Shown: piece by piece, positions 2,208 through 23,602 of the stretch
Position numbering within the stretch: position 1 is the first letter of the stretch
How the letters are laid out: each line of letters starts with the position of its first letter
Source of the DNA: a virus
IMG/VR virus record: IMGVR_UViG_3300037189_022208
Coordinates: 1 to 27,805 of that record
Strand: one strand, 5' to 3'
DNA length: 27,805 nucleotides
Translations under genes and position numbers: made by a program
The notes under the pieces: model-generated
Databases searched by the model: none
Told to the model about the DNA's origin: nothing
What the model saw: only the letters and a program-made list of their open reading frames with translations

Positions 2208-2675
2208 ATGAAATTCGACTTACTCTTTAATCAAGTTTTTTTAACTGAAGCTGATGATTATATTCACGGACACGATGAAACCGCACCTGAAGATCGTATA
2301 ACTCACGATGATAGTTCCGTTGAAACGGCTGCCGATCACCCTGAAGGTACCCCTCTTCCTCAAAACTATGATGTTGAACCAGCACCAGTTGGTGGTAGTG
2401 GAGGTGATGCCGGTTCATTAAAAGAGCAGGTTAGAAAGCTCGATGATTTCGCTGAAGCTTTAAATGGTGTTGACGGCGAGTCACTTCAAAAGCTTGTCAA
2501 TGATATGGATCGACCTGGTAGCTTATTTCAAGGTATTTCTAGAGAAACATCTCCTGAAATTATTCGTATAGCTGGTCAAGTTGCAGAACTTTCTGAAATA
2601 CTTAAAGGGTTTGTTATTAACTCAGCTAAGCGCTCTAGAGATATAGCCGCCGGAGCTGCTGGTAATCAGCGATAA
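2208..2675 (+). CDS. Putative internal virion protein with capsid-targeting N-terminus
   Basis: A 155-residue acidic protein of unrecognised family. The first 14 residues (MKFDLLFNQVFLTE) form a short amphipathic stretch ending in L-T-E before Ala15. This matches the (L/I)-x-E prohead-protease site and the N-terminal capsid-targeting sequences of T4 internal proteins. Residues 15-70 are low-complexity, rich in Asp, Glu, His, Pro and Gly, and probably disordered. Residues 72-150 are helical. A late-promoter-like octamer lies 17 bases upstream of the start. The next gene (primase) starts 18 bases after its stop. A packaged head protein is my inference; no direct homology was recognised. Confidence 0.8.
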   Translation: MKFDLLFNQVFLTEADDYIHGHDETAPEDRITHDDSSVETAADHPEGTPLPQNYDVEPAPVGGSGGDAGSLKEQVRKLDDFAEALNGVDGESLQKLVNDMDRPGSLFQGISRETSPEIIRIAGQVAELSEILKGFVINSAKRSRDIAAGAAGNQR

Positions 2676-3928: not shown

Positions 3929-4939
3929 CTACCACTTAGCAGCTCCTCCTAAACCAGATTCTAAACCCTTCACTACCCCTGTAGCTATTTTTTGAGATGC
4001 AGTTTCTCCTGTATTTGTATGAAAAGCTAAATCTTTTAACGTTTCCATTACAGCTTCCGATTCTTTTGTTTTTAAATCCAATATTGTTTTTACTGTATAT
4101 ATTTTATCCCCTATTTTACCTTCCCTAATAAATTTAACATAATCTTTATCATTTGCTAGATGTCTAAATGCATTAAATAGAGCGTCTTTAGTCATACCTA
4201 AGAATTTTAAAGCTATAGGTCCTCCAAATAAAATAGCCGGTAATAATAAACTCTCTCTTTCTAAACTTTTACCTGTTAGTTTTTCGTATAAAAAACCAGT
4301 ATAAAGAGATAGATAAGTTAAATCTTCTAAATCACTTCTTAATTCATTAGGTAATGTACTCCCTGTTTTATATTTTTCAGGATTGTAAAAAATATCTATT
4401 ATATACGTACTATAATCTTTTTTAAGATTTGCTTTAACTATATTAACAGTAGCATTTAAAAGTGTTGAATTGTAATTTTTCTGTATTAATTGATTACCTA
4501 ATAGTACACGCAAATCTTTTAATTGCTTTATTGCTGCTGAAAAGCCGTTTGTATCTTCAAATTCAAACGGCTTTTTACCGTCATTAACCTTATCTATTAA
4601 TCTTATTATTTCATCATTTACACCTGGTGCTTTTAATATATCATCAATTTTTGTAGATTTTAAGCTTTTCATTTCCGCTCCACCATTGGCTATTTTTCTT
4701 ATTAAAACACAACAGTTTAAAAATACAGCCTCAGCATCTGTTAAATCATTAAAATCAGCTCCTTTAAGTCTAAGGCCTCCACTTACATAAGCTATTTTCT
4801 CAACTTTTGTTATATCCAATATACCATATTCTGTTCTAATATTATTTTTAAGTACTTCATAATCCTTTTTAGTATCTCCTGAAGAGCTATAACCTTCTTC
4901 TAATAATATACTTTCAACTATTTGTTTAAAATCAAACAT
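3929..4939 (-). CDS. Putative packaged virion protein, unknown family
   Basis: A 336-residue, mostly helical protein. Its N-terminus MFDFKQIVESILLEEGYSSS has the capsid-targeting pattern: amphipathic, with L-L-E at 12-14 followed by Glu-Gly and a Ser/Gly linker. Around residues 237-247 a hydrophobic, glycine-containing stretch (LLLPAILFGGPIALKFLG) could insert in or lie against a membrane. The C-terminus is Gly/Ala-rich (GLESGLGGAAKW). A perfect T4 late octamer TATAAATA lies 10 bases upstream of the ATG, so late expression is likely. These signs point to a head protein, possibly one delivered with the DNA, but I recognise no family and the function is open. Confidence 0.8.
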   Translation of the reverse strand: MFDFKQIVESILLEEGYSSSGDTKKDYEVLKNNIRTEYGILDITKVEKIAYVSGGLRLKGADFNDLTDAEAVFLNCCVLIRKIANGGAEMKSLKSTKIDDILKAPGVNDEIIRLIDKVNDGKKPFEFEDTNGFSAAIKQLKDLRVLLGNQLIQKNYNSTLLNATVNIVKANLKKDYSTYIIDIFYNPEKYKTGSTLPNELRSDLEDLTYLSLYTGFLYEKLTGKSLERESLLLPAILFGGPIALKFLGMTKDALFNAFRHLANDKDYVKFIREGKIGDKIYTVKTILDLKTKESEAVMETLKDLAFHTNTGETASQKIATGVVKGLESGLGGAAKW

Positions 4940-5594: not shown

Positions 5595-6353
5595 TTATAC
5601 TTTAAGAGCTTTATTCCAAATCAGCAACTGCAATCTTGGACTAAAATTAACGTGCATAGCCTTAGCATATTCTGCTACAGCAGGAGCATTTTCTACATGC
5701 TCTTCTCGAGAACCACAACAAGGCATAAACCAAATACGGTTTAACGGTACATTAATACCTTCCTTATCCTCAACGTACTTACGCCAAATTTCATCAATAT
5801 CTTCTGAACGATTAATAACAAATTTAAACCCAGATTTATTTTTTACGTGCCATTTTAATGCCTCTGGCTTATAAGTCTTCTCTTCAGGATCACCGTTAGA
5901 GATAAGCTTCGGTGAGGTAGTAAAAGTAGCTCTAAAAGCATTTATCCACATATCGTCTGGAATTAATGTAGCATTAGTTTCAAAATCAATACGAGGTAAG
6001 AAACTATATCTAACTGTAAAGGCAGTAATAAACTTAAGAAGTTGTTTTTCCTGAATAATAGGCTCCCCGCCTGTAAGCTTCAAGATGGCTTTATTACGAA
6101 GATGTTCAATATAATTGTTATCTGCCATTAACTTAAAGATCTCATCAAACGTCATCTTGTTATTCACTGACCAAGAAATTAATGAATAGCATACATTAGG
6201 TGAATCCTCAGATGCAAATCCCTTGCAAGTAAGGTTACACATTGACATACGCATAAAAACAGAGGGCACTCCCACGTACTCTCCTTCTCCTTCAATAGTA
6301 TAAAATATTTTATCGTCAGATAAAAATAATGTTTCAGTGTCTGTATTAATCAT
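5595..6353 (-). CDS. queE: 7-carboxy-7-deazaguanine synthase (QueE), radical SAM
   Basis: A 252-residue radical-SAM enzyme. FYTIEGEGEYVGVPSVFMRM at 17-36 is the classic QueE N-terminus (IQGEGxxxGxPxxFxR), followed by CNLTC at 39-43. TGGEP at 93-97 is the SAM-binding GGE motif. QueE converts 6-carboxy-tetrahydropterin to 7-carboxy-7-deazaguanine, the step after QueD. The cluster motif is odd: cysteines at 39, 43 and 55 give C-x3-C-x11-C instead of the canonical C-x3-C-x2-C, so the third ligand follows a longer loop. The gene lies between queD (3-base gap) and the P-loop kinase gene (1-base gap). Phage copies may serve tRNA queuosine or 7-deazaguanine DNA modification; this window does not decide between them. 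Confidence 0.9.
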   Translation of the reverse strand: MINTDTETLFLSDDKIFYTIEGEGEYVGVPSVFMRMSMCNLTCKGFASEDSPNVCYSLISWSVNNKMTFDEIFKLMADNNYIEHLRNKAILKLTGGEPIIQEKQLLKFITAFTVRYSFLPRIDFETNATLIPDDMWINAFRATFTTSPKLISNGDPEEKTYKPEALKWHVKNKSGFKFVINRSEDIDEIWRKYVEDKEGINVPLNRIWFMPCCGSREEHVENAPAVAEYAKAMHVNFSPRLQLLIWNKALKV

Positions 6354-6356
6354 AAA

Positions 6357-6809
6357 TTATTCAAAGTAAATAGCAGAGTTATTTTCGTGTTCAAATACCT
6401 CAACCATATCTACCCAACAACGACCGTTGGTTTCTAGTTTTATAAAGTCATTCGCTACATTATAGCACCACTCTGCAGTCTTTTCAATACCTACTGCTTC
6501 CATAACTCTAAGCTGACAACCTCCTTGATTATTAAGCTCCTGCCAAAAAGGTAGTAATGGATCATCTTGAGCTACACAAAGGGTATGATCAAATTGATCA
6601 GTTAATTTCTTTCTAAGATCTTTAATGCCTCCAAAATCAACCATCCAGTTCTTATCATCTAGCTCTTTACCTGCAAAATAAAATTTAGCTTTAAGCTGAT
6701 AACCGTGAATATATTGACAATGACTATGAGTAGCTCTCCATTGACGAAAGGCACAGGACCCTAGCTCAATTACTTTTGTACTCTGCCAGTTAGGTAACTT
6801 TTCACTCAT
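6357..6809 (-). CDS. queD: 6-carboxy-tetrahydropterin synthase (QueD-like)
   Basis: A 150-residue member of the 6-pyruvoyl-tetrahydropterin synthase family. SHC at 29-31 with HGY at 35-37 corresponds to the QueD zinc/nucleophile region (HxC...HGH). MVDFGGIKDLRKKL at 56-69 matches the conserved VMDF motif. Asp74-His75 supply the catalytic pair, and VEVFEHENNSAIYF near the C-terminus carries the pterin-anchoring Glu. It would convert dihydroneopterin triphosphate to 6-carboxy-tetrahydropterin for QueE. Two features differ from bacterial QueD: the HGH motif is HGY, and the usual first zinc histidine (AHRL) is replaced by FRQW, so His28 or His30 must compensate. The start overlaps the previous gene's stop (ATGA). 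Confidence 0.87.
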   Translation of the reverse strand: MSEKLPNWQSTKVIELGSCAFRQWRATHSHCQYIHGYQLKAKFYFAGKELDDKNWMVDFGGIKDLRKKLTDQFDHTLCVAQDDPLLPFWQELNNQGGCQLRVMEAVGIEKTAEWCYNVANDFIKLETNGRCWVDMVEVFEHENNSAIYFE

Positions 6810-7146: not shown

Positions 7147-8688
7147 TTACCCAAGCTTATTAACAAATAAGTTATAGATATTTTGATCAAAATGACCAAT
7201 TGTTTCTATAACCATACGTTTACGCTTTTTCTCATCTGCTGTTTTAAATAGTGCTCTAAATTCTGATGCACTATCCATTTGTTCACCGTCAATATCAAAA
7301 GATATATTACCTGGAGCGTAAATGTATCCGTGACCACCTTTTTCGTTAAAAGGTTTCATTTCATTAATATCTTTGTAAGGTTGAAAATAAGACTTATCCC
7401 CGCTTCTTGTATTTTTAAAATTAAATCTCGGATCACTCTTCATATCCTTCATACCTACCAAGAATATTACTTTATCTATATCAGGATTATAATGTTCAAG
7501 AATTTCTACAGGTTTGTAAGGTATTCGAGTTTCAACGATTTCATTTACAGGTACTCCACAAGCATGAATAATCTGTTTCTTTTCATTAAAATCAAAAGGG
7601 TACCTACTCGGATCCTTTTGAGCATCTTTACTTGTGTTACTTGCTGTAGCTATATAAAACTTAGCTGAAGGAAATTCGTGTTTTGCTTTCTCGTAATAAA
7701 AAGCATGACCTTTATGAAAGGGTTGAAAGCGTCCGGCAAATATAACTATTAAATTATATCCTACTCCTTCGGATTCAGCAAAGAAACGAGAAAATGATGT
7801 GTTTTTATTAAAGAGAGGTTTAACTTTAGATTCAGATAGACGCTGGGTAACAAGCTTTATAGCACGTTCTTTATTATCACCTTTAGGTGTACCTACTTCA
7901 CCGGATTTTACACTAACCATTCCCTTAAAAATACCTGCTACTCGTTTCTTAGATCTAGGATTTTTTAACTTAGTAGCAATTTCATTTAATAACTCTTCAA
8001 ACGTTCCGTCAATATTGTAATTTTGAAGTAAGCGTTCAACTAGATTCCAATCTGCAGAACTCCAAACTATCTCCCTTGATAATTCTTTAAAGTTTTCTAA
8101 TTTTACCTTTCTTAAAGATAAATTAACTGAGCTCAAATTAAATTCATACTCTTCTCCTTGTTGTAAGGGAGGTAAATTATTAATACCTAATCTACGAAAA
8201 ACTCTTTTAGGGTCTTCTTCAAGTAATACGGTTTTTACTAAACCAATAAGAAGGCCTTGTTTTTCAGCAGGTAAATCTAAAAATTCGTTTTTAAAATTAT
8301 GCTCTTCTTCTGACAGAGCAATAATATTATCTACCTGAATATACTCTCCGGGTTTACCGGTTATAGGAAACAACACTGATACGAGTTCACCGGAATTATA
8401 ATATCTTCTTCCTTTATATTTTGGACTCTTAAAGGGTACAATAAGACTGGTCGGTAAAGATGTTATAGAATCAATAATTTGTTGTTTAACTTCCTGTTTA
8501 TTATTACCTTCAAAAGAAGCAATAATATCTAAATCTCCAAAATCTGCCTTAGCTCCTGTTTTTATACTGCCAGATAGAGTAGCGTTAATAAAACCGGGTA
8601 TCTTTTTAAGTACAAGTTTTGTATAATCATTAAATGTCGCTTGAACATTTTCCCTTTTAATACGATTTCCACCTGCTACGCCACTCAT
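7147..8688 (-). CDS. Fusion of nucleotidyltransferase and NMNAT-like adenylyltransferase
   Basis: A 513-residue two-enzyme protein. Residues 30-125 show a Pol-beta-type nucleotidyltransferase (NTase) core: GS at 40-41, Asp52-Leu-Asp54 and a third acid Asp120 in YIQVDN. Residues 130-300 are a helical linker. Residues 312-470 are a cytidylyltransferase/NMN-adenylyltransferase-like domain with GRFQPFHKGH at 319-328 (the HxGH signature), ATASNT at 347-352 and MDSASEFRALF late in the chain (the SxTxIR position). Just before it, SFSRFFAESEG at 298-308 resembles an internal copy of the capsid-targeting N-termini seen in neighbouring genes. The substrate of either domain cannot be read. The gene overlaps the upstream NTase gene by 4 bases, so the two probably act together, perhaps in NAD or nucleotide transfer chemistry. 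Confidence 0.85.
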   Translation of the reverse strand: MSGVAGGNRIKRENVQATFNDYTKLVLKKIPGFINATLSGSIKTGAKADFGDLDIIASFEGNNKQEVKQQIIDSITSLPTSLIVPFKSPKYKGRRYYNSGELVSVLFPITGKPGEYIQVDNIIALSEEEHNFKNEFLDLPAEKQGLLIGLVKTVLLEEDPKRVFRRLGINNLPPLQQGEEYEFNLSSVNLSLRKVKLENFKELSREIVWSSADWNLVERLLQNYNIDGTFEELLNEIATKLKNPRSKKRVAGIFKGMVSVKSGEVGTPKGDNKERAIKLVTQRLSESKVKPLFNKNTSFSRFFAESEGVGYNLIVIFAGRFQPFHKGHAFYYEKAKHEFPSAKFYIATASNTSKDAQKDPSRYPFDFNEKKQIIHACGVPVNEIVETRIPYKPVEILEHYNPDIDKVIFLVGMKDMKSDPRFNFKNTRSGDKSYFQPYKDINEMKPFNEKGGHGYIYAPGNISFDIDGEQMDSASEFRALFKTADEKKRKRMVIETIGHFDQNIYNLFVNKLG

Positions 8689-9644
8689 AGTTTATATTTT
8701 ACAAGATTTGAATCATCAGGCAAAAATTTACCTTTTAAATTCAACCTCTCTTGATTATCTATCCAATATTTCTGAAGATCTTCAGGAATATCCGCTCTTG
8801 TACTATCAAGAATTCTAAGATAGGTGTCATAAACGGCGTGAAGACCCTCTTCACTAAGATCTCGTTTAAGTACGTCAATTAAGGTATGATAATCCCCTAC
8901 AGTATTTTGATCTAAATGAATATTATAAAGTTTATTTAAAAGCTCGATTGCTTGTTTAGGGGTACTGGCGACAATTTCTTGAGTTTCTTTGTTTTTTACT
9001 CCGTAGTTATGAGAAAATGTATAACCTTTATGAGAGAAAAGTGAGACTAAAAGCTGGGTACGATGAAGCCCTTTAACATTTCCTTGATAGGTAGCTGAAT
9101 GATAGGCAAATGTTAGCCAATCTACATTACCGACATTAATATCGATTTGAACTCTCTTATCTAATTGATTACCGTTACTATCAAATTGAGGAAATTGACA
9201 AAATAAAGCTCCAGCCGAACTACCTTTAACATCAGTGACAATATCGGTATCTGAAGCTACTAATTTCTCTGCTATAGCTACAATAACAGCACGTTTTGTT
9301 AGTTGTTCTTCTGTAGCTGTTTTAGCTTTTTTCTTAAAAATATTAAACAACTCATCTACTCTATCCTTATCAAGACCCCAATCATTAATATTTTTAAATG
9401 AATCTTCTGAAAGCGCTAAATCAATATCTCCTGATACTTCTTTTTTACCTACTGAGCCTAAAGTACGAATACCTTCAAAGTGAAGTCTTGCTGCAGGAAA
9501 TACAGTTTCAAACTGCTTAAAGAACTCCTTCATTGTAGGAACTATATCTTCCTTTTTAATTGGGGAAGAAGCTTCAAATACATTACCTCCTTCACTTAAG
9601 AGATAAGATGTTTTAAAGTAACTACTAAAAGATGACTTGTGCAT
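8685..9644 (-). CDS. Nucleotidyltransferase-superfamily protein with capsid-targeting-like N-terminus
   Basis: A 319-residue protein with a Pol-beta-type nucleotidyltransferase active site: GSVGKKEVSGDIDLAL at 63-78, where Gly63-Ser64 and Asp73/Asp75 are the GS and DxD motifs, and Asp168 in VQIDIN as the third carboxylate. These enzymes move NMP groups to RNA, protein or small molecules; the acceptor here is unknown. The N-terminus MHKSSFSSYFKTSYLLSEGG carries L-S-E at 16-18, a prohead-protease-like site, so the enzyme may be packaged in the head. It sits between a Dps-like gene (7-base gap) and the NTase-NMNAT fusion (4-base overlap), in a unit that starts with a late-type octamer at 10386. 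All key residues of the NTase site are present. Confidence 0.83.
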   Translation of the reverse strand: MHKSSFSSYFKTSYLLSEGGNVFEASSPIKKEDIVPTMKEFFKQFETVFPAARLHFEGIRTLGSVGKKEVSGDIDLALSEDSFKNINDWGLDKDRVDELFNIFKKKAKTATEEQLTKRAVIVAIAEKLVASDTDIVTDVKGSSAGALFCQFPQFDSNGNQLDKRVQIDINVGNVDWLTFAYHSATYQGNVKGLHRTQLLVSLFSHKGYTFSHNYGVKNKETQEIVASTPKQAIELLNKLYNIHLDQNTVGDYHTLIDVLKRDLSEEGLHAVYDTYLRILDSTRADIPEDLQKYWIDNQERLNLKGKFLPDDSNLVKYKL

Positions 9645-9651
9645 TACCCTA

Positions 9652-10020
9652 TTACTTAAGAGTAAGAAGGTATTTTAATCTATTAACAACCGCCATTATC
9701 TCATCTCTAATATTGAGACAATCTGAATCTTTAACAGGATCAAGACCTTCAGTATAACCGGTTACAAGATAATCTGTAAATTCTTCTAATATAGCAGGTA
9801 TATCTATATCTTGTTTATTAACTAAACCAAGGTCTACAGGAGCATTATAAATTATCTTGCCATACTTACCTTGATGTACTTCAACAACATCATCAATTAA
9901 GCCGTCAAGGGCTTCGTAAGCTTTTCCTAGAGCTTTATGCTCTCCGTAAAGATTAGCCTGCCAGTGACAAATTCTTAACTGGTTTTGTAACTTTAAAAGA
10001 TTTACTACCTGCTTTTCCAT
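9652..10020 (-). CDS. Dps/ferritin-like helical protein (DUF5856-like)
   Basis: A 122-residue protein with the beginning of a Dps-like four-helix bundle. Residues 8-50 contain LRICHWQANLYGEHKALG and LIDDVVEVHQ, giving His19-Trp20, His28, Asp43/Asp44 and Glu47. This spacing resembles the HW...H...D...E ferroxidase pattern of Dps proteins. It is shorter than bacterial Dps (about 160), so it may be an adaptor-type helical bundle of the phage DUF5856 kind. Iron binding or DNA protection is an inference; no strong nucleic-acid-binding tail is visible. It lies 1 base after the P/T/S-rich gene and 7 bases before the NTase gene. Confidence 0.72.
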   Translation of the reverse strand: MEKQVVNLLKLQNQLRICHWQANLYGEHKALGKAYEALDGLIDDVVEVHQGKYGKIIYNAPVDLGLVNKQDIDIPAILEEFTDYLVTGYTEGLDPVKDSDCLNIRDEIMAVVNRLKYLLTLK

Positions 10021-10021
10021 A

Positions 10022-10372
10022 TTACTTGTTAGTAGTAGCTACTAATTGTACTCCATTCTTAGGATCTTTTAAGAATTGCGCAAGCTTGTTAGGATCGGTA
10101 ATACCAGCTATAGCTTTAATAGCATTGTGATTAGGATCAACAATAGATTGAGTAAGATTAGGTTGAGACTTATTTTGCTGATTGTTAATACTATTAGGTG
10201 TTCCAGGAGAAGCAGTAGTAGAAGCAGTAGTAGGGTTAGCACCTGTAGGAGAGGGAGAAGGAGCTAAAGTAGAATTACCTGCAGCAGGGTTAGTACCTGT
10301 AGGAGGAGTAGGCTGAGAGGGTTGATTGTAATCTTCCCAGAGAGTATTTAAAAGGTTTTCGAACTTAGACAT
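10022..10372 (-). CDS. Pro/Thr/Ser/Asn-rich virion-type protein
   Basis: A 116-residue protein. The N-terminus MSKFENLLNTLWEDYN carries L-W-E at 11-13, in the position of the capsid-targeting cleavage sites of the neighbours. Residues 17-75 are low-complexity repeats built of PTPPTGTNP- and SPSPTGANP-like units, certainly disordered. Residues 80-116 are a small conserved-looking domain (DPNHNAIKAIAG, DPNKLAQFLKDPKNG). A late-promoter-like octamer lies 6 bases before the ATG, and the gene heads the sub-operon with the Dps-like and NTase genes. I read it as a head-internal protein. A linker or decoration role is equally possible. Confidence 0.75.
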   Translation of the reverse strand: MSKFENLLNTLWEDYNQPSQPTPPTGTNPAAGNSTLAPSPSPTGANPTTASTTASPGTPNSINNQQNKSQPNLTQSIVDPNHNAIKAIAGITDPNKLAQFLKDPKNGVQLVATTNK

Positions 10373-11515: not shown

Positions 11516-11940
11516 ATTGCTGATTTATTATTTAATACACTTTTAGGTGGACGGCCTATGCGAAGGTTTAAAATTCCATTATAATAGTCATTTTTTAATA
11601 AAACTTCTCTACCTATCTGTTCTTTGGCTTCTTCGTATGCCAGTTCCCACTTAGAACCGCAGGTTCTTAGAATCTCAAATCTAAAATTCTCTTTTCCAAT
11701 TTTAATTATATCATTATTTAAATCAACTGAGGAACTTGTATAAACTTTCCAGTCAGATTCTTTATATTCAATTCGCTTGTTCTTTTTACCTTTTAACGGT
11801 TTACGCTTAAATTTTGATATACATTGTTTCTTACCTATATACTTTTTATTGTTAGTAAGGTTTGTTATCAAATAAATGAAACCGAAAATTTCCTCCGAAA
11901 ATTCAATTCCCTCGTTTAAGACCCAATGACCGGTATCCAT
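11509..11940 (-). CDS. GIY-YIG endonuclease-like protein
   Basis: A 143-residue protein with a GIY-YIG nuclease core: GFIYLITN at 20-27 and KKYIGKK at 32-38 are the two signature strands (GIY and YIG). A basic stretch follows (SKFKRKPLKGKKNKR), then SDWKVYTSSS and GKENFRFEIL, which resemble phage Seg-type GIY-YIG proteins. A downstream glutamate in YEEAKEQIGRE could be the metal ligand. It may be a free-standing homing endonuclease or a fixed phage nuclease. No intron or intein is visible nearby, which leaves both open. It overlaps its upstream neighbour by 1 base and its downstream neighbour by 7. Confidence 0.82.
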   Translation of the reverse strand: MDTGHWVLNEGIEFSEEIFGFIYLITNLTNNKKYIGKKQCISKFKRKPLKGKKNKRIEYKESDWKVYTSSSVDLNNDIIKIGKENFRFEILRTCGSKWELAYEEAKEQIGREVLLKNDYYNGILNLRIGRPPKSVLNNKSAIC

Positions 11941-12194
11941 TAACGCTTTCTTCTATGTTTACGCTTACGACGTTTGCTTTTAACTTTCCCAGAGTAAAGA
12001 GAATCCTTAGGTAAGTTACGTCTTATTATTCCGCCTAATACTTTAGGAATTCTAGCATCTCCTTTAGCATAGTTGTCTCCGGAAAAAGGTGTTTCTGTGG
12101 ATGTTACTCCTGGACCTAGAACACTACCTGCACCTCCAGCAACATTAGCATTCTCTGCCAATATCTCTTCAACAATGTATTCTAAATTAATCAC
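11940..12194 (-). CDS. Small basic protein with capsid-targeting-like N-terminus
   Basis: An 84-residue protein that starts at GTG (12192-12194); no in-frame ATG or other start fits upstream. The N-terminus VINLEYIVEEILAENANVAGG has L-A-E at 12-14 followed by Asn and a Gly-rich linker, matching the candidate prohead-protease sites of its neighbours. The middle is Gly/Pro/Thr-rich and the last 13 residues (KSKRRKRKHRRKR) are almost entirely basic, ideal for binding packaged DNA. A CTTAAATA octamer lies 5 bases upstream. I infer a DNA-associated internal head protein. It heads the minus-strand unit 12194-10434. Confidence 0.78.
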   Translation of the reverse strand: MINLEYIVEEILAENANVAGGAGSVLGPGVTSTETPFSGDNYAKGDARIPKVLGGIIRRNLPKDSLYSGKVKSKRRKRKHRRKR

Positions 12195-14721: not shown

Positions 14722-15778
14722 TTTTAATAGTAACAAAGTAGCGTTTATTAGTGATATCCATTTAGGTGTTCATCAGGATTCATCTACATGGCATAAAATA
14801 GCTATAAAGTTTGCTCACTGGTTAGATGATACATTAAAAGATAGAGGTATAAAAGATATTGTCATAGCGGGAGATATATTTCATAACAGACATGAAATAG
14901 GAGTTAATACTATTCATGCTGCTCATAAGTTTTTTGATATATTAAAAAATTATAATATTGTAGCTATAACAGGTAATCACGATTGTTACTACAAGGATAA
15001 ATCAGATGTAAATTCTATTTCTATACTCAACGGTTATAAAAATATAACTGTATTTCAAGAATTAAGAACTTGTATTATTGATGGTAAGACTTGGACGTTT
15101 TGTCCGTGGGGAGTAACAATAGACAAGATACCTAAAAGTGATATTATTGTTGGTCATTTTGAGATTACTCACTTTAGAATGAATCAGCATAAGATTTGCG
15201 ATCACGGAATGAAAACCGTACAATTACTCGATAAGAGTAAATTTGTTATTTCTGGTCACTTTCATTATAGAGAGCATAGAACGTATCCTGAAGGCGGAAG
15301 TATTCTTTATCTAGGTTCTCCTTATGAATTAGATTTCGGAGATAGAGATCACGCTAAAGGTGTATCAATTTTAAATACCGATACTCTTGAGGTAGAGTTA
15401 ATTGAAAATACTGTAACACCTAAACATGTTAAAATTAATATTTCTGATTTAACAGAAGGTAGAGTTAAGCTTGAAGATCTATCCCCTATATTATCTAATA
15501 ACTTTGTAGATTTTAGTATTGATAAAAATATTAATACTCAAGCTGTTGATTTACTATTAACAAAGTTTAATCAGTTTAAACCGCTTCACGTTAGAACAAA
15601 TTATAATATTTTTGAAAACGTCCAGCTATCAGCTACTGACGTAGATAATTTTAGTATTGATGTTGAAACAGCTCTTCAGGAGTTTGTTGATTTATTAGAT
15701 ACACAAGTAAATAAAAAGGAGATCCTAGATAAATGTTTAGATCTCTATAAACTATCTTTGGTAATACATGAACAATAA
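14714..15778 (+). CDS. 47: gp47-like recombination nuclease (SbcD/Mre11 family)
   Basis: A 354-residue metallophosphoesterase nuclease. Its motifs are DIHLG at 14-18, GDIFHNR at 53-59, GNHD at 87-90 and GHFH at 181-184, the full Mre11/SbcD set of metal ligands. In T4, gp47 pairs with the gp46 ATPase to resect DNA ends. I chose the ATG at 14714 over a TTG three codons upstream because the ATG matches the Mre11-type start (INFNSNKVAFISDIH) and couples to gene 55 by an 8-base overlap. The expected partner gene 46 does not follow; instead a glycosyltransferase gene overlaps its end by 11 bases. Confidence 0.93.
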   Translation: MINFNSNKVAFISDIHLGVHQDSSTWHKIAIKFAHWLDDTLKDRGIKDIVIAGDIFHNRHEIGVNTIHAAHKFFDILKNYNIVAITGNHDCYYKDKSDVNSISILNGYKNITVFQELRTCIIDGKTWTFCPWGVTIDKIPKSDIIVGHFEITHFRMNQHKICDHGMKTVQLLDKSKFVISGHFHYREHRTYPEGGSILYLGSPYELDFGDRDHAKGVSILNTDTLEVELIENTVTPKHVKINISDLTEGRVKLEDLSPILSNNFVDFSIDKNINTQAVDLLLTKFNQFKPLHVRTNYNIFENVQLSATDVDNFSIDVETALQEFVDLLDTQVNKKEILDKCLDLYKLSLVIHEQ

Positions 15779-16577
15779 AATTGGAATAGGTATTATAACT
15801 TGCAATAGACCTGAGTATCTCCGTCGTTTACTCGTATCTCTTGTACAGTGTGAGAGTATAATTGATGAACTTGTTGTAGTTAATGATGGTAGACCAATTA
15901 CTGATTTTGATTTAAGTCAGGGAGAGTGGATAGATAACAAAGTAAACCTAGGGGTAGGTAAATCTAAAAATTTAGCTCTTAGACATTTACTTGAAAAGAA
16001 ATGTGATTCTATCTTCTTATTAGAAGATGATATTGTTATTAAAGATAAAGAAGTATTTAACAAATATATAGAAGCATCTAAGATATCAGGCATTCAGCAT
16101 TTTAACTTTGCTTTTCACGGTAATGATAATTACTTACCTAATGGAGCTCCTGCTGAAAGACTGAGAGTAGAATATAGTAAGGATATAGCAGTTTGTTTTT
16201 ACCCTAATGTTTATGGCGCTTTTAGCTTCTATACTAAGGAGTGCTTAGAGGCTGTAGGACTAATGGATGAAGAGTACTATAACGCTATGGAACACGTTGA
16301 TCATACTTTCTTTATATCTCAGGCGGGTATGACATCACCCTTTAGATGGTTTGCTGATATTGCTAACAGTAACAAATATATTGAAGAGTTAGATAAAAAT
16401 CATTCCGGTAGTGAAATTAGACGGGACGGAAAATGGATAGCTAATTTTCAAAAAGCAGTAGCAAGATTTGCAGAAAAGTCTAAAATAAATGTTACAGGTC
16501 CTACAGATGTGTTTTGGACTAAAGAGCAAACTATTGATATTATCAAACAAATTAAAAAGAAGTATGGAAAAAAATAA
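15768..16577 (+). CDS. Family-2-like glycosyltransferase, copy 1
   Basis: A 269-residue GT-A glycosyltransferase. The start GIGIITCNRPEYLRRLLVSL at 5-24 is the GT2 nucleotide-binding strand-loop, and LLEDDIVI at 84-91 holds the DxD-type metal motif (Asp87-Asp88). The middle reads NVYGAFSFYTKEC and a MEHVDHTFF block, as in transferases with an acidic active-site helix. The next gene at 16564 is a clear paralogue with the same motifs at the same places. It begins inside the end of gene 47 (11-base overlap) and opens the glycan cluster. The donor sugar cannot be inferred. Confidence 0.88.
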   Translation: MNNKIGIGIITCNRPEYLRRLLVSLVQCESIIDELVVVNDGRPITDFDLSQGEWIDNKVNLGVGKSKNLALRHLLEKKCDSIFLLEDDIVIKDKEVFNKYIEASKISGIQHFNFAFHGNDNYLPNGAPAERLRVEYSKDIAVCFYPNVYGAFSFYTKECLEAVGLMDEEYYNAMEHVDHTFFISQAGMTSPFRWFADIANSNKYIEELDKNHSGSEIRRDGKWIANFQKAVARFAEKSKINVTGPTDVFWTKEQTIDIIKQIKKKYGKK

Positions 16578-17358
16578 AATAGGCGTAGGTATTGTAACAT
16601 ATAACTCAGAAAACTATTTTAAGGATTTATGGAATAGTTTACAAAGTTCTTGTGCACGTTTTGATGAGCTTGTTGTTGTTAACGGAGGGAACAAATACGA
16701 AGGAAAGTATGAGTGTGGATGGATACAGCATAATATTAATTACTATCCTGCTGTTTGTAGAAATGATGCTATTAATTTTTTAATGAATAGAGGATGTGAG
16801 CATATTTTCCTTATTGAGGACGATATGATTATTAAAGATCCTAGTATTTTTGAAAAATATATTAAAGCATCTGAAGCTTCCGGTTTAAAGTATTTTTCTT
16901 ATGTTAGTACGTCCTGGGAGTCAGGAGAGCCAGGTAATAGAACACCTCGATTAACTATTGAATATACACCTGAAGTTAGTATTTCATTTTATAAAAATAT
17001 GTGTAATGAATTTACGTATCATCATTACACTGCTTTTGAAGATACCGGATTGTATGATACGCAATTTAGAGATCCATTTGATATTGATATGGCATACAGA
17101 GAGTCTCAACAAGGTCATGCTGCTCCTTTTTGGTGGTTTGCTGACGTTACTGGATCAGATGAATTAGTTTGTAATAACCCTGTAGCTGTAAGTCGCTTAC
17201 AAGGAGAAAGACCAGATGGTTCTAGAGCTCAACGAATAGAAGAGCAGTGGAGGCTGTTTGTTGCTAAACATGGAACTTTTGTAGGAGAAATACCTGATAT
17301 ATCTAAAGAAAAGGCTTTACAACGTCTCATCATGAGAGGAAAAAATTACGGAAAATGA
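16564..17358 (+). CDS. Family-2-like glycosyltransferase, copy 2
   Basis: A 264-residue paralogue of the preceding protein. IGVGIVTYNSENYFKDLWNS (6-25) is the GT2 start and FLIEDDMIIKD (82-92) the metal motif. The LxEDDxxIKDxxxFxKYIxAS block is shared with copy 1. The frame is open further upstream, but the ATG at 16564 matches the N-terminus of copy 1 and overlaps its stop by 14 bases, so I take that start. The C-terminal 60 residues diverge, suggesting different acceptors. Its stop shares ATGA with the next gene. Confidence 0.87.
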   Translation: MEKNKIGVGIVTYNSENYFKDLWNSLQSSCARFDELVVVNGGNKYEGKYECGWIQHNINYYPAVCRNDAINFLMNRGCEHIFLIEDDMIIKDPSIFEKYIKASEASGLKYFSYVSTSWESGEPGNRTPRLTIEYTPEVSISFYKNMCNEFTYHHYTAFEDTGLYDTQFRDPFDIDMAYRESQQGHAAPFWWFADVTGSDELVCNNPVAVSRLQGERPDGSRAQRIEEQWRLFVAKHGTFVGEIPDISKEKALQRLIMRGKNYGK

Positions 17359-18158
17359 AGATAGTAATTGGTATAAACAATTTTAAAAAGGAATCTGATC
17401 TCAATAATAGAGAACAAATGTGCGTAGATGCACTACATAAAATAGTAAAAATATTTCCTAATAATGTTGAAATTGTAAATATTACTTTTAAAGATGAAAC
17501 GTTTGCTAATCTTAAAGGATTTAAAAATATACATTGTCTTAAACAAATACCGGTAAATATAACAGATAAAAAAATACCGTTTGTTAATGAAATTTTTGAC
17601 CATTTAGCAGAAATTGATGCTGATTACTTTTTGTTTGTTAATAATGATATTATTATTTCTAATCGTTATATTAAAGCTATACTAAGTAACCCTGAATATG
17701 ATTGTTTTCCTGCTAGTAAGTTACATTTTACAAAATTAGATTCGATTGATGATAGAGATAGTGTACCAGAATCATTAAGTGTTCATGGGTTTGATGGATT
17801 TGCTATTAAAAGCAGTTGGTGGAAGCAAAATAAAGACAAGTTTAAACCGATGCTTTTAAGTAGAGCTTATTGGGATACTTACTTTTATACTAAATGTCAT
17901 TTATATGGTAAAAGCTTAACACTTAATAAACCACCCGCTGTAATCTTTCATTTAGATCATAAAAGTACATCTATGGAAGGAGAGCCTGGTAATACATATA
18001 ACGAAAAAACGTTTATCGAGGATAAAGATCAACTACCTCAAAGATGGTTTTCTTATGTACAAAGTGTATTGCTAAAAAGACCGACTCACAATAATATATT
18101 ATGGTACTTACCTTTTGATAATGAGGTAGAAATAGAAAAGCAGCATTTTAAATTATGA
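17355..18158 (+). CDS. Putative GT-A-type glycosyltransferase
   Basis: A 267-residue protein that reads like a GT-A transferase. It has an N-terminal strand MKIVIGINNFKKESD, an acidic site FVNNDIIIS at 94-102 (Asn-Asn-Asp in place of DxD), and a later HGFDGFAIKSSWW block. No family number is given because the motifs are loose. It couples to both neighbours by 4-base ATGA overlaps, so its membership of the cluster is certain while its donor and acceptor are not. Confidence 0.75.
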   Translation: MKIVIGINNFKKESDLNNREQMCVDALHKIVKIFPNNVEIVNITFKDETFANLKGFKNIHCLKQIPVNITDKKIPFVNEIFDHLAEIDADYFLFVNNDIIISNRYIKAILSNPEYDCFPASKLHFTKLDSIDDRDSVPESLSVHGFDGFAIKSSWWKQNKDKFKPMLLSRAYWDTYFYTKCHLYGKSLTLNKPPAVIFHLDHKSTSMEGEPGNTYNEKTFIEDKDQLPQRWFSYVQSVLLKRPTHNNILWYLPFDNEVEIEKQHFKL

Positions 18159-18904
18159 AAAAAATACTAACATCTTTCGCGGGTCATAGCTATGCCCTTA
18201 AAATGTCTCAATTGAGACTTAATGAACAAGCAAAAAATTATTTTAATGGAGTTGCGGACTTTGATGAAAATAGTGATTTTATTATTAACCTTTATCGTAA
18301 ATATCCTAAAGTAGCTCAGTACAGAAGAGGGGTAGGTTTTTGGTTTTGGAAACCGTTTATTATTTTAAAAACCCTACAGAGTGTTAATGAAGGAGATTTT
18401 GTGTTTTACGTAGATAGCGGTAGTGATATTGTAGGAGACCTTACTCCATTATTTGAAATATGTAAAAACAACAACGGGTTTTTATTATTTGAAAATCGTA
18501 GCGGTCACCCTCAAGGTCAAATATGGCAAAATTATATGTGGTGTAAGAAAGATACGTTTGCTTTAATGAACTGTGATACAAAAGAGTATCATTACGGTCC
18601 ACAAATAGACGCAGCTTATCAACTATATCAAAAGAATGATAAAACAATAGCCTTCTTAGAAGAGTACTGCAAATACGCAGCAGATAATAGAATTATTACT
18701 GACGAACCTAGTACATTAGGAGATAATTTTCCTGAGTTTGTTGATCATAGACATGATCAAGCTATTGCATCTTTATTAGCTATAAAACATAAGATAAAGC
18801 TTTTTCCAGAACCTTCAGAAGCTGGAGACGGATTGAGACCAAACAACAATCCTTATCAAAGAGTATTCTTACATCATAGAGGTACAATATATGGAAGAAA
18901 ATAA
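18155..18904 (+). CDS. Glycosyltransferase-like protein (WFWKP family)
   Basis: A 249-residue protein. RRGVGFWFWKP at 57-67 and FYVDSGSDI at 84-92 are typical of a family of uncharacterised transferases in O-antigen and capsule clusters. In that family a GxGxWxWKP stretch precedes a short DxG site. FVDHRHDQAIASLLA near residue 200 fits an acceptor-side helix. ATGA coupling to the previous gene and a 14-base overlap with the next place it firmly in the operon. The reaction is unknown; membership of a glycosyltransferase clan is known only by motif. Confidence 0.8.
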   Translation: MKKILTSFAGHSYALKMSQLRLNEQAKNYFNGVADFDENSDFIINLYRKYPKVAQYRRGVGFWFWKPFIILKTLQSVNEGDFVFYVDSGSDIVGDLTPLFEICKNNNGFLLFENRSGHPQGQIWQNYMWCKKDTFALMNCDTKEYHYGPQIDAAYQLYQKNDKTIAFLEEYCKYAADNRIITDEPSTLGDNFPEFVDHRHDQAIASLLAIKHKIKLFPEPSEAGDGLRPNNNPYQRVFLHHRGTIYGRK

Positions 18905-19787
18905 TTTAGTATATGTATTTTTAAATAGTAAGTTTACGGATAGTAAAGATAGAGAAGTAACTCACTATGCTTATGATGAGCTACCAGAGTATTATACTAA
19001 GACATATAATCACAATAAACAAAAGTTTAATTCGTCTCATTTTATAACAAATAATAATGATATTAAATTATTAACTGAAGATTCTGACTTTAAAACTGTT
19101 GATAATATTTTTAATAAAAAGTGGGAAAGATATAAAAAGAATCCCTTTTGGTATAACACAACAGTAAGAGTTATATTACTTTGTTTGTACGTAAGAAATA
19201 ATAATCTTAAAAATGTAACTCATGTAGAAGCTGATAATATTATTTTTGCAGATAATGTTAATATATTAAGCAATACATTTAAAGAAGGGGAATTTGGTTA
19301 TAGTAATGAGGCTCCTTATTCTTCTGCTCCTTCTTTTATTTTTATAAAAGATAAAGATGCTGCAGATAAATTACTTCGTTTACATATAAAACTTTTTGAA
19401 AAAGGAGAACAACTACTAGCACCTTATGTAGGTCAGTACGCCGGATATCTTACCGATATGGCATTCTTAGATCTCATTTATAGAAGCGGTAGTAAGCATT
19501 ACAGAATGCTTCCTTGCTTACCTTCAGGTTCAAACTCTCATAACTTTGATTCTCTTCAATACGTATTTGATCCTACTTCATATGGTCAGTACTTAGGAGG
19601 TACTAACAACGGACATCCTCCAGGGTTTAAAGACTCACACCATTATGTAGGTCACGAATTATTATCTAAAAGAATAGATGTAAAATTTGATAAAATTCCT
19701 TTTATTATACATAATAATAAACAAATACCTATTTTTAACTTACACGTACATAATAAAAAAGCTATCGAGGGATTCTTAAATGCTTAA
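18891..19787 (+). CDS. Putative glycosyltransferase, unknown family
   Basis: A 298-residue protein. THVEADNIIF at 110-119 resembles the acidic metal site (DxD-like E-x-D) of GT-A enzymes, following a strand and a helix (TVRVILLCLYV). Residues 140-170 and a His-rich end (NGHPPGF, DSHHYVGHELL) are typical of an acceptor pocket but not diagnostic. It overlaps its neighbours by 14 and 8 bases. I cannot name the family. An unusual number of histidines in the last third is the most notable feature. Confidence 0.7.
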   Translation: MEENNLVYVFLNSKFTDSKDREVTHYAYDELPEYYTKTYNHNKQKFNSSHFITNNNDIKLLTEDSDFKTVDNIFNKKWERYKKNPFWYNTTVRVILLCLYVRNNNLKNVTHVEADNIIFADNVNILSNTFKEGEFGYSNEAPYSSAPSFIFIKDKDAADKLLRLHIKLFEKGEQLLAPYVGQYAGYLTDMAFLDLIYRSGSKHYRMLPCLPSGSNSHNFDSLQYVFDPTSYGQYLGGTNNGHPPGFKDSHHYVGHELLSKRIDVKFDKIPFIIHNNKQIPIFNLHVHNKKAIEGFLNA

Positions 19788-20562
19788 AGATAATATAATA
19801 ACCCCTGATAAATTTTTAAGTTTATCTAATAACTGTATGTCTAGATATACAGTAGATATTAAACTAACACCCGAACGTAATATATTCTTTATAAAGCCTG
19901 ACTTTTTAAAAGAATTTATAACAGCTGTTTTACCGCTTATAAATTATAATTTTATTCTTATTACTCACGATTCTGATATACCTGTAACTGAAGAATATAA
20001 TATAATTTTAAACAATCCGTTTTTAGTAAAATGGTTTGGAATGAACTGTCATATAATACATAACAAATTACAACCAATACCGATTGGTATGGCTAACGAA
20101 TGTTGGCCGCACGGAGATAAAGATGTTATTTTAAAAGTAGTTAATGAAAATAACGAAAAGAAAAATTTTGTTTACTGTAATTTTGATATTAACACAAATT
20201 TAAAAGATAGATCATACGCACTATCAAATCTTAGAAAATTAACCTTTATTGATTTTGAAACTCAAAAACTTTCATTTGAAGATTATATTCGTAAGCTAAG
20301 CTCATATAAGTACGTAATTTCTCCTCCAGGTAATAGTGTAGATTGTCATCGTGTATGGGAGTCAATGTATGTAAAAACTATACCTATTGTTTTAAAGAGT
20401 ATACCGATGGTTAATTTTAAGGATAGCCCGATATTGTTTATTGATGATTGGAGTTGCTTAAATGAAGAACTACTGTATAATAACTACGAAAATATCTTAA
20501 AAAGGTCTAATCAAAAATCCGATTTTCTTTCTTATAAAGATATTATTACAAATTTAATATGA
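19780..20562 (+). CDS. Exostosin-like glycosyltransferase (GT47-type)
   Basis: A 260-residue GT-B transferase. The segment ISPPGNSVDCHRVWES at 180-195 reproduces the exostosin C-terminal donor-binding motif (SPxGxxxDxxRxWE), followed by the expected T-IPIVL strand. IPIGMANECWPHG (about 98-110) suits the N-terminal half-site. Exostosin-type enzymes usually add uronic acid, galactose, xylose or related sugars in polysaccharides. It overlaps the previous gene by 8 bases and the next by 4 (ATGA). Confidence 0.85.
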   Translation: MLKDNIITPDKFLSLSNNCMSRYTVDIKLTPERNIFFIKPDFLKEFITAVLPLINYNFILITHDSDIPVTEEYNIILNNPFLVKWFGMNCHIIHNKLQPIPIGMANECWPHGDKDVILKVVNENNEKKNFVYCNFDINTNLKDRSYALSNLRKLTFIDFETQKLSFEDYIRKLSSYKYVISPPGNSVDCHRVWESMYVKTIPIVLKSIPMVNFKDSPILFIDDWSCLNEELLYNNYENILKRSNQKSDFLSYKDIITNLI

Positions 20563-21368
20563 AAAAATACCTAACAACTTTTTCTTTTTACGAAGGAGAA
20601 AGGGAATATCTATATAACACATACGCTAAGCCAAGATTTCAAAAATACGCTGATTTACATGGTCTTAAATTTGTTGAGCTCAATAAATTTAATTTTAATA
20701 TTGAAACAATTCATCCTGAAATAGGTATTAAAGATAATCTACATTTTAATAGGTGGTTACTTTTTAAGAAACTTCTAGATGCAGGTACATTAAAGGACGG
20801 AGATATAGTATATAATATTGACGCAGATATTTTTATTAAAGAAATAAATCAATTTTTTATACCAGAAAAATCTTTTACCTACGCAATCGATTCTGGTAAT
20901 ACTCACTGTTTTGGTTTCTTCGTATTAAAAATATCTCCCTTTACAAGAACCCTTATAGACAATATTATATCTCGCGAGCGTTGGCTTAAGGTGAGAGATC
21001 ATGTATTTTTTAATGAGCATGACAATAAACATGGTAAATGGTTTATTGCTGATCAACAAATGTACTATACCTGTGCAGGTATAAAGCCGCATAGTTGGAA
21101 GTCATTTTACGAATTAGAAAATCTTGGTTTTCATTCGTATCCTACCGAGCATACAATTTTTACATTAGAGGAATTAAAAGAAAATGTAGAAGTACTACCT
21201 ACAGAGTGGAATGTTACACACTTAATTGATGAAACTATGGAAAATGGTAAGAGATGTGCTTATGATATTGTCCATTCTACAAGGGAAAAAGCTATTTTTA
21301 GACATTTTGCCGGTGGTACTCAACCTTGGAGATTTCAAGAATACGATGCTCTATACCCCTTAACATGA
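20559..21368 (+). CDS. Glycosyltransferase with DAD motif, copy 1
   Basis: A 269-residue GT-A-type transferase. MKKYLTTFSF is the first strand and YNIDADIFI at 85-93 the DxD metal motif. AIDSGNTHC (about 109-117) and ADQQMYYTCAGI (about 160-171) are conserved with the tandem copy that follows. The fold resembles GT8/GT34-type enzymes. The two copies are so similar that 22 identical bases remain (21075-21096 and 21893-21914), so the duplication is fairly recent. ATGA overlaps link it to both neighbours. Confidence 0.85.
   Translation: MKKYLTTFSFYEGEREYLYNTYAKPRFQKYADLHGLKFVELNKFNFNIETIHPEIGIKDNLHFNRWLLFKKLLDAGTLKDGDIVYNIDADIFIKEINQFFIPEKSFTYAIDSGNTHCFGFFVLKISPFTRTLIDNIISRERWLKVRDHVFFNEHDNKHGKWFIADQQMYYTCAGIKPHSWKSFYELENLGFHSYPTEHTIFTLEELKENVEVLPTEWNVTHLIDETMENGKRCAYDIVHSTREKAIFRHFAGGTQPWRFQEYDALYPLT
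21075..21096 (+). repeat. 22-base identical segment shared by the tandem transferase copies (first copy)
   Basis: This stretch encodes AGIKPHS in copy 1 and is identical to 21893-21914 in copy 2, 818 bases further on. It is the longest exact match I noticed between the two genes. It reflects gene duplication and a conserved motif, not a mobile element, but could support recombination between the copies. Confidence 0.85.
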
Positions 21369-22189
21369 AAAAATATTTTTTAACATGTGCATTCTTTCCT
21401 AAAGAATCTGAAAAATATAAATTATTTTATCAATACTCTAAACCTAGAATACAAGAATTCTGTAAATTACATGGGTTTAAACATCTTGACGTAAATTTAG
21501 ATAATTTTCAATTACCATCAATTTTTAAACAAATACCTAGCTATAGTGTAATTAACTATCAATTTGCAAGATGGTATGTAATAGATAGCTGTATAAAAGA
21601 AAATCTTTTAAAAGACGATGATATAGTAAATTATACTGACACTGATGTTTATATAGTACAGCCAAAAGTTTTACTACAAACTAATAAAAGTTATAGCTAT
21701 GCTATAGACAGTGGTAACACTCACTGCACAGGTATTTTTTCTTTAAAAATAAATGATTTTACTAAAAAATTAATTAGTAGTATACTATCTCAAGAAAGGT
21801 ACGATAATTTAAAAGATTACCTATTGTATAATGAAGACGCTAAAGTCAACTTACCGTTTTATTATAATGATCAACAAGCTTATTATCATGTAGCAGGTAT
21901 AAAGCCGCATAGTTCTGTTTCATTTTTAGAAATGCCTGATTACGGATTTCACTCTTATAAAACAGATCATACAATTTTTACAGTTGAGGAATTACTACAA
22001 AATGTTGAGTTATTAGGTCCAGAATGGAATACCACACATCTAGTAGAAGAAACAGGAGATAATGGCAAACCAAATTATTACGATATTGTAAGAACAACTA
22101 AAGATAAAGTTATTAATAGACATTTTGCAGCTTCCGCGCCTAGGCTTTATACAGAATGGGAAGAATATAGTAAACGTTATGACAATTGA
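21365..22189 (+). CDS. Glycosyltransferase with DTD motif, copy 2
   Basis: A 274-residue paralogue of the previous gene, with YTDTDVYI at 90-97 (DxD at Asp92/Asp94), AIDSGNTHC at about 116-124 and NDQQAYYHVAGIKPHS at about 167-182. The frame is open further upstream, but the ATG at 21365 gives MKKYFLTCAFF, collinear with copy 1 (MKKYLTTFSF), and forms an ATGA overlap, so that start is chosen. Differences in the first 60 residues suggest altered acceptor use. It overlaps the next gene by 11 bases. Confidence 0.85.
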   Translation: MKKYFLTCAFFPKESEKYKLFYQYSKPRIQEFCKLHGFKHLDVNLDNFQLPSIFKQIPSYSVINYQFARWYVIDSCIKENLLKDDDIVNYTDTDVYIVQPKVLLQTNKSYSYAIDSGNTHCTGIFSLKINDFTKKLISSILSQERYDNLKDYLLYNEDAKVNLPFYYNDQQAYYHVAGIKPHSSVSFLEMPDYGFHSYKTDHTIFTVEELLQNVELLGPEWNTTHLVEETGDNGKPNYYDIVRTTKDKVINRHFAASAPRLYTEWEEYSKRYDN

Positions 22190-22880
22190 TTACATTTATA
22201 TTATACATTACTATAAAGAAGTAGAACGTAAAAAATATTTAGAACAATATTTACCTATTTTAAATATTCCTTACGAATTTAGAGCACAATATAATCGAGA
22301 ATCACCTGAAGTATTAAGTGATATGTACTTCAATCAAACGGAGGAAAATAGATTAAAGAAAAATGCAATTACAACTCAGTATGGTAAAATTGTAGAAATA
22401 GGTATGCCTCTAGAATGGGGAGAAAAAGGTCGCGCATATCGAGCCGTGACGCTTGAGCATTTTAAAACATATGAACATATTATTAATAATACTGATTATC
22501 AACATGTACTTATTCTAGAAGATGATGTAATGTTTAAACCTAACTTTTTAGAATCTTTACAAACATATACAAATACATTACCTGAAGATTACGATATATG
22601 TTATATTGGCTCCGGGTGCGATTTACGCTTACCGTATCATACTAATAAAATATTAGATATACATCCTCAATATCATAGCCGTTGCAGTGACTCTTATATT
22701 ATAAAAAGAGAAGCTTTAAAAAAAATTATTGATACAGCATTACCGTTTTTTGGTGCTATTGATTGGGAGTTGAATTATATTCAAGCATTAAACAAATTTA
22801 ACGTGTACTGGGTTACAGATCCTAAAACTTATCAAGGTTCTCAGCAAGGTAGTTACGCTAGTACTTTTAGTATACTGTAA
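22179..22880 (+). CDS. Family-25-like glycosyltransferase
   Basis: A 233-residue protein with GT25 (LPS-type galactosyl/glucosyltransferase) features: a start IYIIHYYKEVERKKY, TLEHFKTYEH (about 91-100) resembling the S-HxxxW helix, LILEDDVMF at 111-119 with the metal motif, and GAIDWELNY near the C-terminus, the D-(W/x)-E pattern of this family. The start at 22179 follows the motif and overlaps the previous stop by 11 bases; the longer open frame upstream is antisense-free but unlikely. GT25 enzymes usually add galactose or glucose to LPS cores or to proteins. Confidence 0.87.
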   Translation: MTIDYIYIIHYYKEVERKKYLEQYLPILNIPYEFRAQYNRESPEVLSDMYFNQTEENRLKKNAITTQYGKIVEIGMPLEWGEKGRAYRAVTLEHFKTYEHIINNTDYQHVLILEDDVMFKPNFLESLQTYTNTLPEDYDICYIGSGCDLRLPYHTNKILDIHPQYHSRCSDSYIIKREALKKIIDTALPFFGAIDWELNYIQALNKFNVYWVTDPKTYQGSQQGSYASTFSIL

Positions 22881-22882
22881 AT

Positions 22883-23602
22883 ATGAAAAATTTAATTTAT
22901 TATATTTGTAACAATCAATATAAAGATATAGCTCAATTTAATATTGAAAGAGTACAACATCTTGCTCCTAATGTAGATACATGCTGTATAGTTTCTAACG
23001 ATGTAGTATTTAACGATGTTAAACCGACGCATACTTACGTTATTGATAACTTTGATTATAGATATTCAGCAAAGTACTTAATTTGTAAGTGGGATAAAAG
23101 AGACGAGTATGAAAATTTTTTATACTTAGATACTGATGCAATTGCGATAAAAAATGTACAACAGTTATTTGATATTATTGATAGTGATAAAGATAAAGTA
23201 CACGGTGTAAAGGAATACGATAATTTTAATAGTTGTGGAGAATATCATAGATTTGATAATATTATTTACCCTGGTAACCCAGTAGCTTATAATGCAGGTA
23301 CTATAGGTTTTAATAAAAAACTCATTTCAATTTTTAGTTTATTTTTAGAATATATAGAACTAAATAAAACAAAAGCATTACTTGATCAGTCATTATTTAA
23401 TGAATTCTTTATAAGTAAAAATTTATTAATACCCTCTTTCACTAATCTAGTACATCTCTACGGTGAGCATAGCGAAATAAAAGGAGATAATAATGGTACA
23501 TTATTAAATGCAGCTACTATAGCACATTTTTTTGGAGGTGTTTATCAAGGTAAAAATGTAAATTTAATTAAAGAAATTTTAAACAGGAATAATCTTATAT
23601 GA
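22883..23602 (+). CDS. Family-8-like glycosyltransferase
   Basis: A 239-residue protein. LYLDTDAIAI at 80-89 is a GT8-type DxD motif preceded by a short strand. YNAGTIGFNKK (about 145-155) is the GT8 N-A-G block, and IAHFFGG (about 218-224) the H-F-x-G block that binds the pyrophosphate. These three together make the family call good. Starting 2 bases after the previous gene and sharing ATGA with the methyltransferase gene, it is mid-operon. Donor is probably UDP-Glc or UDP-Gal by family habit, not by proof. Confidence 0.87.
   Translation: MKNLIYYICNNQYKDIAQFNIERVQHLAPNVDTCCIVSNDVVFNDVKPTHTYVIDNFDYRYSAKYLICKWDKRDEYENFLYLDTDAIAIKNVQQLFDIIDSDKDKVHGVKEYDNFNSCGEYHRFDNIIYPGNPVAYNAGTIGFNKKLISIFSLFLEYIELNKTKALLDQSLFNEFFISKNLLIPSFTNLVHLYGEHSEIKGDNNGTLLNAATIAHFFGGVYQGKNVNLIKEILNRNNLI

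Follow-up and report, generated by a model that had tools for sequence, protein, structure and literature searches.

Among the ejected phage enzymes already known are Alt of T4 and the RNA polymerases carried in the virions of N4 and the giant phages. In T4, Alt and the internal proteins IPI-IPIII are loaded with the genome (PMC5694885, PMC9958956; further T4 precedent is given in PMC3012670). Alt is cleaved at ITE-6 and LTE-619 (PMC5694885), and (L/I)xE is the cleavage site of the T4 gp21 type. Nucleotidyltransferases of the Pol-beta superfamily have been described in two other settings that bear on the present locus. RlaP-RNA ligase pairs were predicted in jumbo phages (PMC7824862), and Iyer et al. 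(PMC5512222) described Pol-beta nucleotidyltransferases in polyvalent proteins, where they have a minimal fold, occur only in conjugative elements and are fused to ArdC-N.

The protein described here, called NTase1, resembles Alt and IPI-IPIII in having a short N-terminal propeptide that ends in (I/L)xE and, in its relatives, an accompanying S77 prohead protease. It differs from Alt in that it is very probably a Pol X-like enzyme and not an ADP-ribosyltransferase, many of its relatives are leaderless, and its packaging is only predicted. With the minimal family-X polymerases (AsfvPolX, or the palm and C-terminal part of Pol beta, lambda, mu and TdT) it shares the fold, the GS motif and the DxD...D carboxylates and, like AsfvPolX, it leaves no space for a lyase domain at the N-terminus; unlike them, it has no sequence-model match, a C-terminal part of 65 residues of its own, a family confined to phages and a cleavable leader. 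Like jumbo-phage RlaP, it belongs to the Pol-beta superfamily, is encoded in phage genomes and has a ligase-like neighbour in Phosso and Atu_ph07, but it lacks a PF10127 match, and no ligase neighbour was found in the group of the window. Finally, it shares with the polyvalent-protein nucleotidyltransferases (PMC5512222) the superfamily and a predicted entry into the recipient with DNA, but it is Pol X-like, stands alone and has a leader of the head-protease type. Ejected enzymes with cleavable leaders have precedents, as have family-X polymerases, but a literature search of incomplete coverage did not turn up the two together.

The window, that is, the whole stretch of 27,805 nucleotides that was analysed, is a 27.8-kb fragment of a T4-like phage. 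The gene lies on the minus strand, from an ATG at 9644 down to 8685, and encodes 319 amino acids plus a stop; the plus strand of the same interval contains stops throughout. The original prediction named no strand, but all its residues were correct on the minus strand: GS at 63-64, D73, D75, D168, and LSE at 16-18. In the window these correspond to 9453..9458 for the GS motif, 9420..9428 for the DxD motif (D73 and D75) and 9141..9143 for the third carboxylate, D168. The complete nucleotidyltransferase site was borne out, and G63, S64, D73, D75 and D168, and also G19 and G20, are invariant in the alignment of 20 relatives (A1). One search of IMG/VR returned 408 relatives, and 94 distinct ones were compared. 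Among isolates, Flavobacterium phage vB_FspM_immuto is the closest, at 68% identity. No relatives were found in the plasmids searched, and among bacterial and archaeal genomes they were found only on two phage-like contigs in MAGs. The family is widespread and unannotated.

Residues 1-18, MHKSSFSSYFKTSYLLSE (9591..9644), form the predicted capsid-targeting leader, which ends in the predicted prohead-protease site LSE↓GG (residues 16-18, 9591..9599; the arrow marks the cut, before G19). The predicted mature enzyme comprises residues 19-319 (8688..9590) and begins with GGNVF. A lone [LI]xE between residues 7 and 28 is expected by chance in one fifth to one quarter of the ORFs of such phages, and so LSE by itself proves little. 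The relatives are more telling. Among the 94, 44 carry a leader, and all 44 have a Glu directly before Gly-Gly, in the form of [LI]xE in 38 and TxE in the other 6. The remaining 50 carry a single Met in place of the leader, and every one of them starts with Met-Gly-Gly, the Gly-Gly lying just where the cut is predicted, and this lends weight to the claim of cleavage. An initiator Met before Gly is generally removed, and so the leaderless copies would share the Gly-Gly-Asn N-terminus with the cleaved leadered copies. The leaders range from 9 to 51 residues. When they were reduced to 29 non-redundant ones, P1 was E in 29/29, P3 was L in 14, I in 12 and T in 3, P2 was nearly free, and P1' to P5' were invariant; the leaders have an identity of 20% compared with 59% for the mature parts. 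A leader that varies both in its residues and in its length, next to a P3, P1 and mature start that do not change, resembles a protease site. In the leader, the changes by codon position fit a fast-evolving coding sequence, and in the AlphaFold model residues 1-20 are disordered (pLDDT <50) while the remainder is folded with confidence. Two divergent leadered copies keep the arrangement, namely L138 (43% identity, MLVREILIE↓GG) and L139 (30% identity, IKE↓GG); with L139 as the query, no viral relatives were found. The leaderless L035 and L059 have LSEM and ISEM shortly before the start, which is probably due to chance, as no start codon there gives a leader of the usual length.

A prohead protease of the S77 type (PF03420) was found in 9 of the 14 relatives' records searched, the five without it being shorter fragments, and it is present on the 98-kb contig of a relative with 87% identity; no protease gene lies within the 27.8-kb fragment itself. 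When the ORFs of these phages were counted, [LI]xE occurred 105 times at residues 9-20 compared with 48, 48 and 48 in the following windows of residues, and the [LI]xD control was flat. With the fuller leader pattern, 38 other ORFs were found, against 6.0 +/- 2.6 with shuffled N-termini. In the window, such predicted leaders occur on a small protein with a very basic C-terminus and the same class of leader as NTase1 (MINLEYIVEEILAE↓NANVAGG, 11940..12194, minus strand), another small protein (MSKFENLLNTLWE↓DYNQ, 10022..10372, minus), a third protein (MFDFKQIVESILLEE↓GYSS, 3929..4939, minus) and, probably, a fourth that is represented by a single sequence (MKFDLLFNQVFLTE↓ADD, 2208..2675, plus). 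Three adjacent genes in another genome (L010:3152-5642) have almost identical leaders (ME/KNNFDLKKFLVENKLT) and different mature parts. The small protein between leadered genes at 9652-10020 of the window matches PHROG 858 (starvation-inducible regulator) and Pfam DUF5856. Because the cut site is fixed, the S77 protease is present in the nearest long relatives and similar leaders occur on other proteins, the predicted packaging and cleavage of NTase1 are well supported, though unproven, and cleavage of the leader in the capsid by the prohead protease is probable. The original prediction of a cleavable leader like that of T4 Alt was thereby upheld in the conserved cut site across relatives. It had also taken a lack of the leader in relatives as evidence against it. 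In fact 50 of the 94 lack one, so some lineages can do without head delivery, but these same copies begin exactly at the predicted cut. Setting leadered against leaderless copies also offers a means of mapping prohead-protease sites, and hence likely ejected proteins, from sequence alone.

The tree of the mature parts requires at least 3 changes of leader state. Leadered copies form the deeper branches of the group, and leaderless ones form two nested parts together with the jumbo-phage outgroup. An ancestral leader that was later lost is plausible, the root being uncertain owing to long branches. The leaderless immuto group still encodes the S77 protease; therefore, head delivery of NTase1 was lost there or never existed, and the enzyme can work without it.

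The identity of the enzyme was evaluated mainly from its predicted structure. No match to NTase1 was found in the Pfam, PHROGs, NCBIfam, PADLOC and PDB sequence searches or with the defence-system models, and stray weak matches among family members (porin, CagD and others) were attributed to chance. The AF2 model has a mean pLDDT of 87.5. Its best fold match among those listed is AsfvPolX (Z 9.5, 166 of 177 residues, rmsd 3.5, model residues 25..252), and Pol beta, lambda, mu and TdT follow at a Z of about 9. All the matches listed for the model by VIA and Foldseek are Pol X members, the Foldseek TM-scores being modest (0.32-0.37 by query length). The mature protein is laid out as a Pol X-like palm and C-terminal subdomain (residues ~25-253) followed by C-terminal helices of its own (253-319), and the Pol-beta palm carries the three metal-binding carboxylates D73, D75 and D168. 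Since the Pol X sequence models PF14792 and PF18765 gave no match in 20 family members, we name NTase1 Pol X-like and do not file it as a member. With this wording, the assignment is made with high confidence from the model. A comparison with the MNT, kanamycin-NTase and CCA-adding families had been suggested; no Pfam or NCBIfam match to them was obtained, and their folds are absent among the best 50 structural matches, which does not exclude such folds. RlaP was ruled out as the identity, there being no PF10127 match for NTase1 or its relatives.

The gene is followed by a companion, gene 2 (7147..8688, minus strand, 513 amino acids), which overlaps its end by 4 bases. It is predicted to contain a second Pol X-like domain, NTase2 (residues 1-230), and a HIGH-type nucleotidyltransferase domain (313-513; PF01467, 2.3e-10; TIGR00125, 2.9e-8). 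The NTase2 model matches TdT and Pol lambda with a Z of 11.7, and the Pol X sequence models give only weak sub-threshold matches. From hhalign (probability 93, E 2.4e-7), NTase2 is judged to be a paralogue of NTase1. Between the two domains lies a linker (7774..7839) that is predicted to be disordered (pLDDT <50 at residues 286-311) and has two possible protease sites: LSE (residues 284-286, 7831-7839) and FAE (residues 303-305, 7774-7782), the latter in the leader-like SFSRFFAE. An LxE at the joint of the Pol X-like and HIGH domains is kept in nearly all aligned relatives of gene 2, as LAE, LSE, LTE, LNE or LLE, with P2 free. In the clade of the window, the second leader-like piece SFSRFFAE precedes another type of HIGH domain. 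In L024:1608-3089, a HIGH-nucleotidyltransferase domain is fused upstream of NTase1 with the joint LIRKLILE↓GGNVF, and gene 2 of L024 lacks it; the domain has moved, with a protease-like site at both joints. The prohead protease may cut fused proteins of the gene 2 type into single enzymes. Gene 2 of many relatives also has a zincin-like HExxH segment, a likeness to polyvalent proteins. This segment occurs in the long gene 2 proteins (L001:18908-21631; L017, L019, L086), with weak DUF6782, M91 and M78 matches, and reads HEMIH in L001 and L086, as in polyvalent proteins.

In most relatives, the gene order is primase, exonuclease, NTase1 and gene 2. The NTase1 homologue of the jumbo phages Phosso and Atu_ph07 is overlapped by a ligase-like gene, which has the motif EKLDGS and a weak match to PF09414 and is annotated as hypothetical (L002:13806-15041, L124:2037-3011). 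A ligase partner was also sought in the group of the window and was not found: the DNA and RNA ligase models had no match in the two closest long contigs, which are possibly incomplete, and RNA_ligase is absent from immuto. In L021:8957-9613, and likewise in L005, a GIY-YIG endonuclease-like gene is inserted exactly between NTase1 and gene 2. The Pol X-like domains, the primase and exonuclease order and the ligase-like gene of the jumbo phages together point to nucleic-acid end or gap repair.

Computation supports the leader with its fixed cut site, the presence of the protease in close relatives and the Pol X-like fold with its complete catalytic triad. Capsid entry, ejection and the substrate of NTase1 we infer as follows. 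The 18-residue leader would draw the enzyme into the assembling prohead core, where the gp21-type (S77) protease of the phage would cut after LSE-18. The mature enzyme, starting with Gly-Gly-Asn, would stay in the head with the DNA and then be ejected with it; given packaging, ejection is rather likely. In the cell, its most likely substrates would be gaps, nicks or 3' ends in the phage DNA that has just entered, on which it would work as a small polymerase that fills gaps or processes ends by short synthesis. For DNA gap or end synthesis as its activity, the case is evenly balanced. The account as a whole, hedges included, of a capsid-targeted Pol X-like enzyme acting on the incoming genome comes out at slightly short of even, a figure that is not the product of those for its steps. 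The more specific proposal is tentative: that a tailed phage carries in its head a family-X-type DNA polymerase which the prohead protease matures and which, once ejected, repairs or processes the phage's own genome at entry, before phage gene expression. If true, the set of ejected enzymes would gain, with a packaged repair-type polymerase, a task new to it, the mending of the entering genome.

The main rival keeps the delivery and changes the substrate. An RlaP-like nucleotidyltransferase, packaged and ejected, would put back nucleotides at RNA or tRNA ends that nucleases of the host defence have cut. The Pol-beta superfamily fold is compatible with this, arrival with the DNA fits early counter-defence, RlaP-RNA ligase pairs are predicted in jumbo phages (PMC7824862), and RNA_ligase PF09414 is the best, though weak, match of the ligase-like partner in the jumbo relatives. 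However, RlaP (PF10127) matches neither NTase1 nor its relatives, RNA_ligase is missing from the two closest long contigs and immuto, the usual neighbours are a primase and an exonuclease, and the best folds are DNA polymerases; we therefore regard RNA repair as unlikely. The effector proposed in the original prediction, which after ejection would move NMP onto host proteins (AMPylation) or edit host tRNA, is very improbable. A predicted packaging signal is present as that reading requires, but the polyvalent-protein nucleotidyltransferases have a minimal fold and go with ArdC-N and conjugative elements (PMC5512222), while NTase1 matches the larger Pol X fold and lies in a DNA-replication context. 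The family-X fold, the primase and exonuclease neighbours and the lack of any MNT, kanamycin-NTase, CCA, RlaP or defence match all speak against such transfer to the host, and AMPylation of host proteins is unsupported beyond the superfamily.

Two further explanations question the delivery itself. The leader may have nothing to do with the capsid and may be an N-terminal extension for regulation or for docking to the replication machinery, with E↓GG being structural; NTase1 sits in a replication block in many relatives, and in L024 a whole HIGH-nucleotidyltransferase domain stands upstream of ILE↓GG. This is quite unlikely when we consider that conservation is limited to P1, P3 and the mature start while the rest varies in sequence and length, that the leaderless copies begin exactly at the cut and that unrelated proteins bear similar leaders. 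Alternatively, the leader could be a packaging signal for an enzyme that works inside the head, or for a bystander that only aids core assembly, with no ejection in working form. The class of leader is shared by small proteins of these phages, and non-essential passengers occur among the T4 core proteins (PMC9958956). Nevertheless, neither the catalytic residues nor the mature N-terminus vary, whether a copy has a leader or not; therefore, catalysis is selected, and this explanation is decidedly improbable. No study of Immutovirus virion proteomics was found in the literature search; mass-spectrometry data exist for Atu_ph07 (PMC6102473).

Other parts of the window were also annotated from sequence. 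Neighbouring QueE-like and QueD-like genes at 5595-6809 suggest a deazaguanine pathway and possibly DNA modification, and a run of glycosyltransferase-like and methyltransferase-like genes at 15768-24126 takes up much of the right half.
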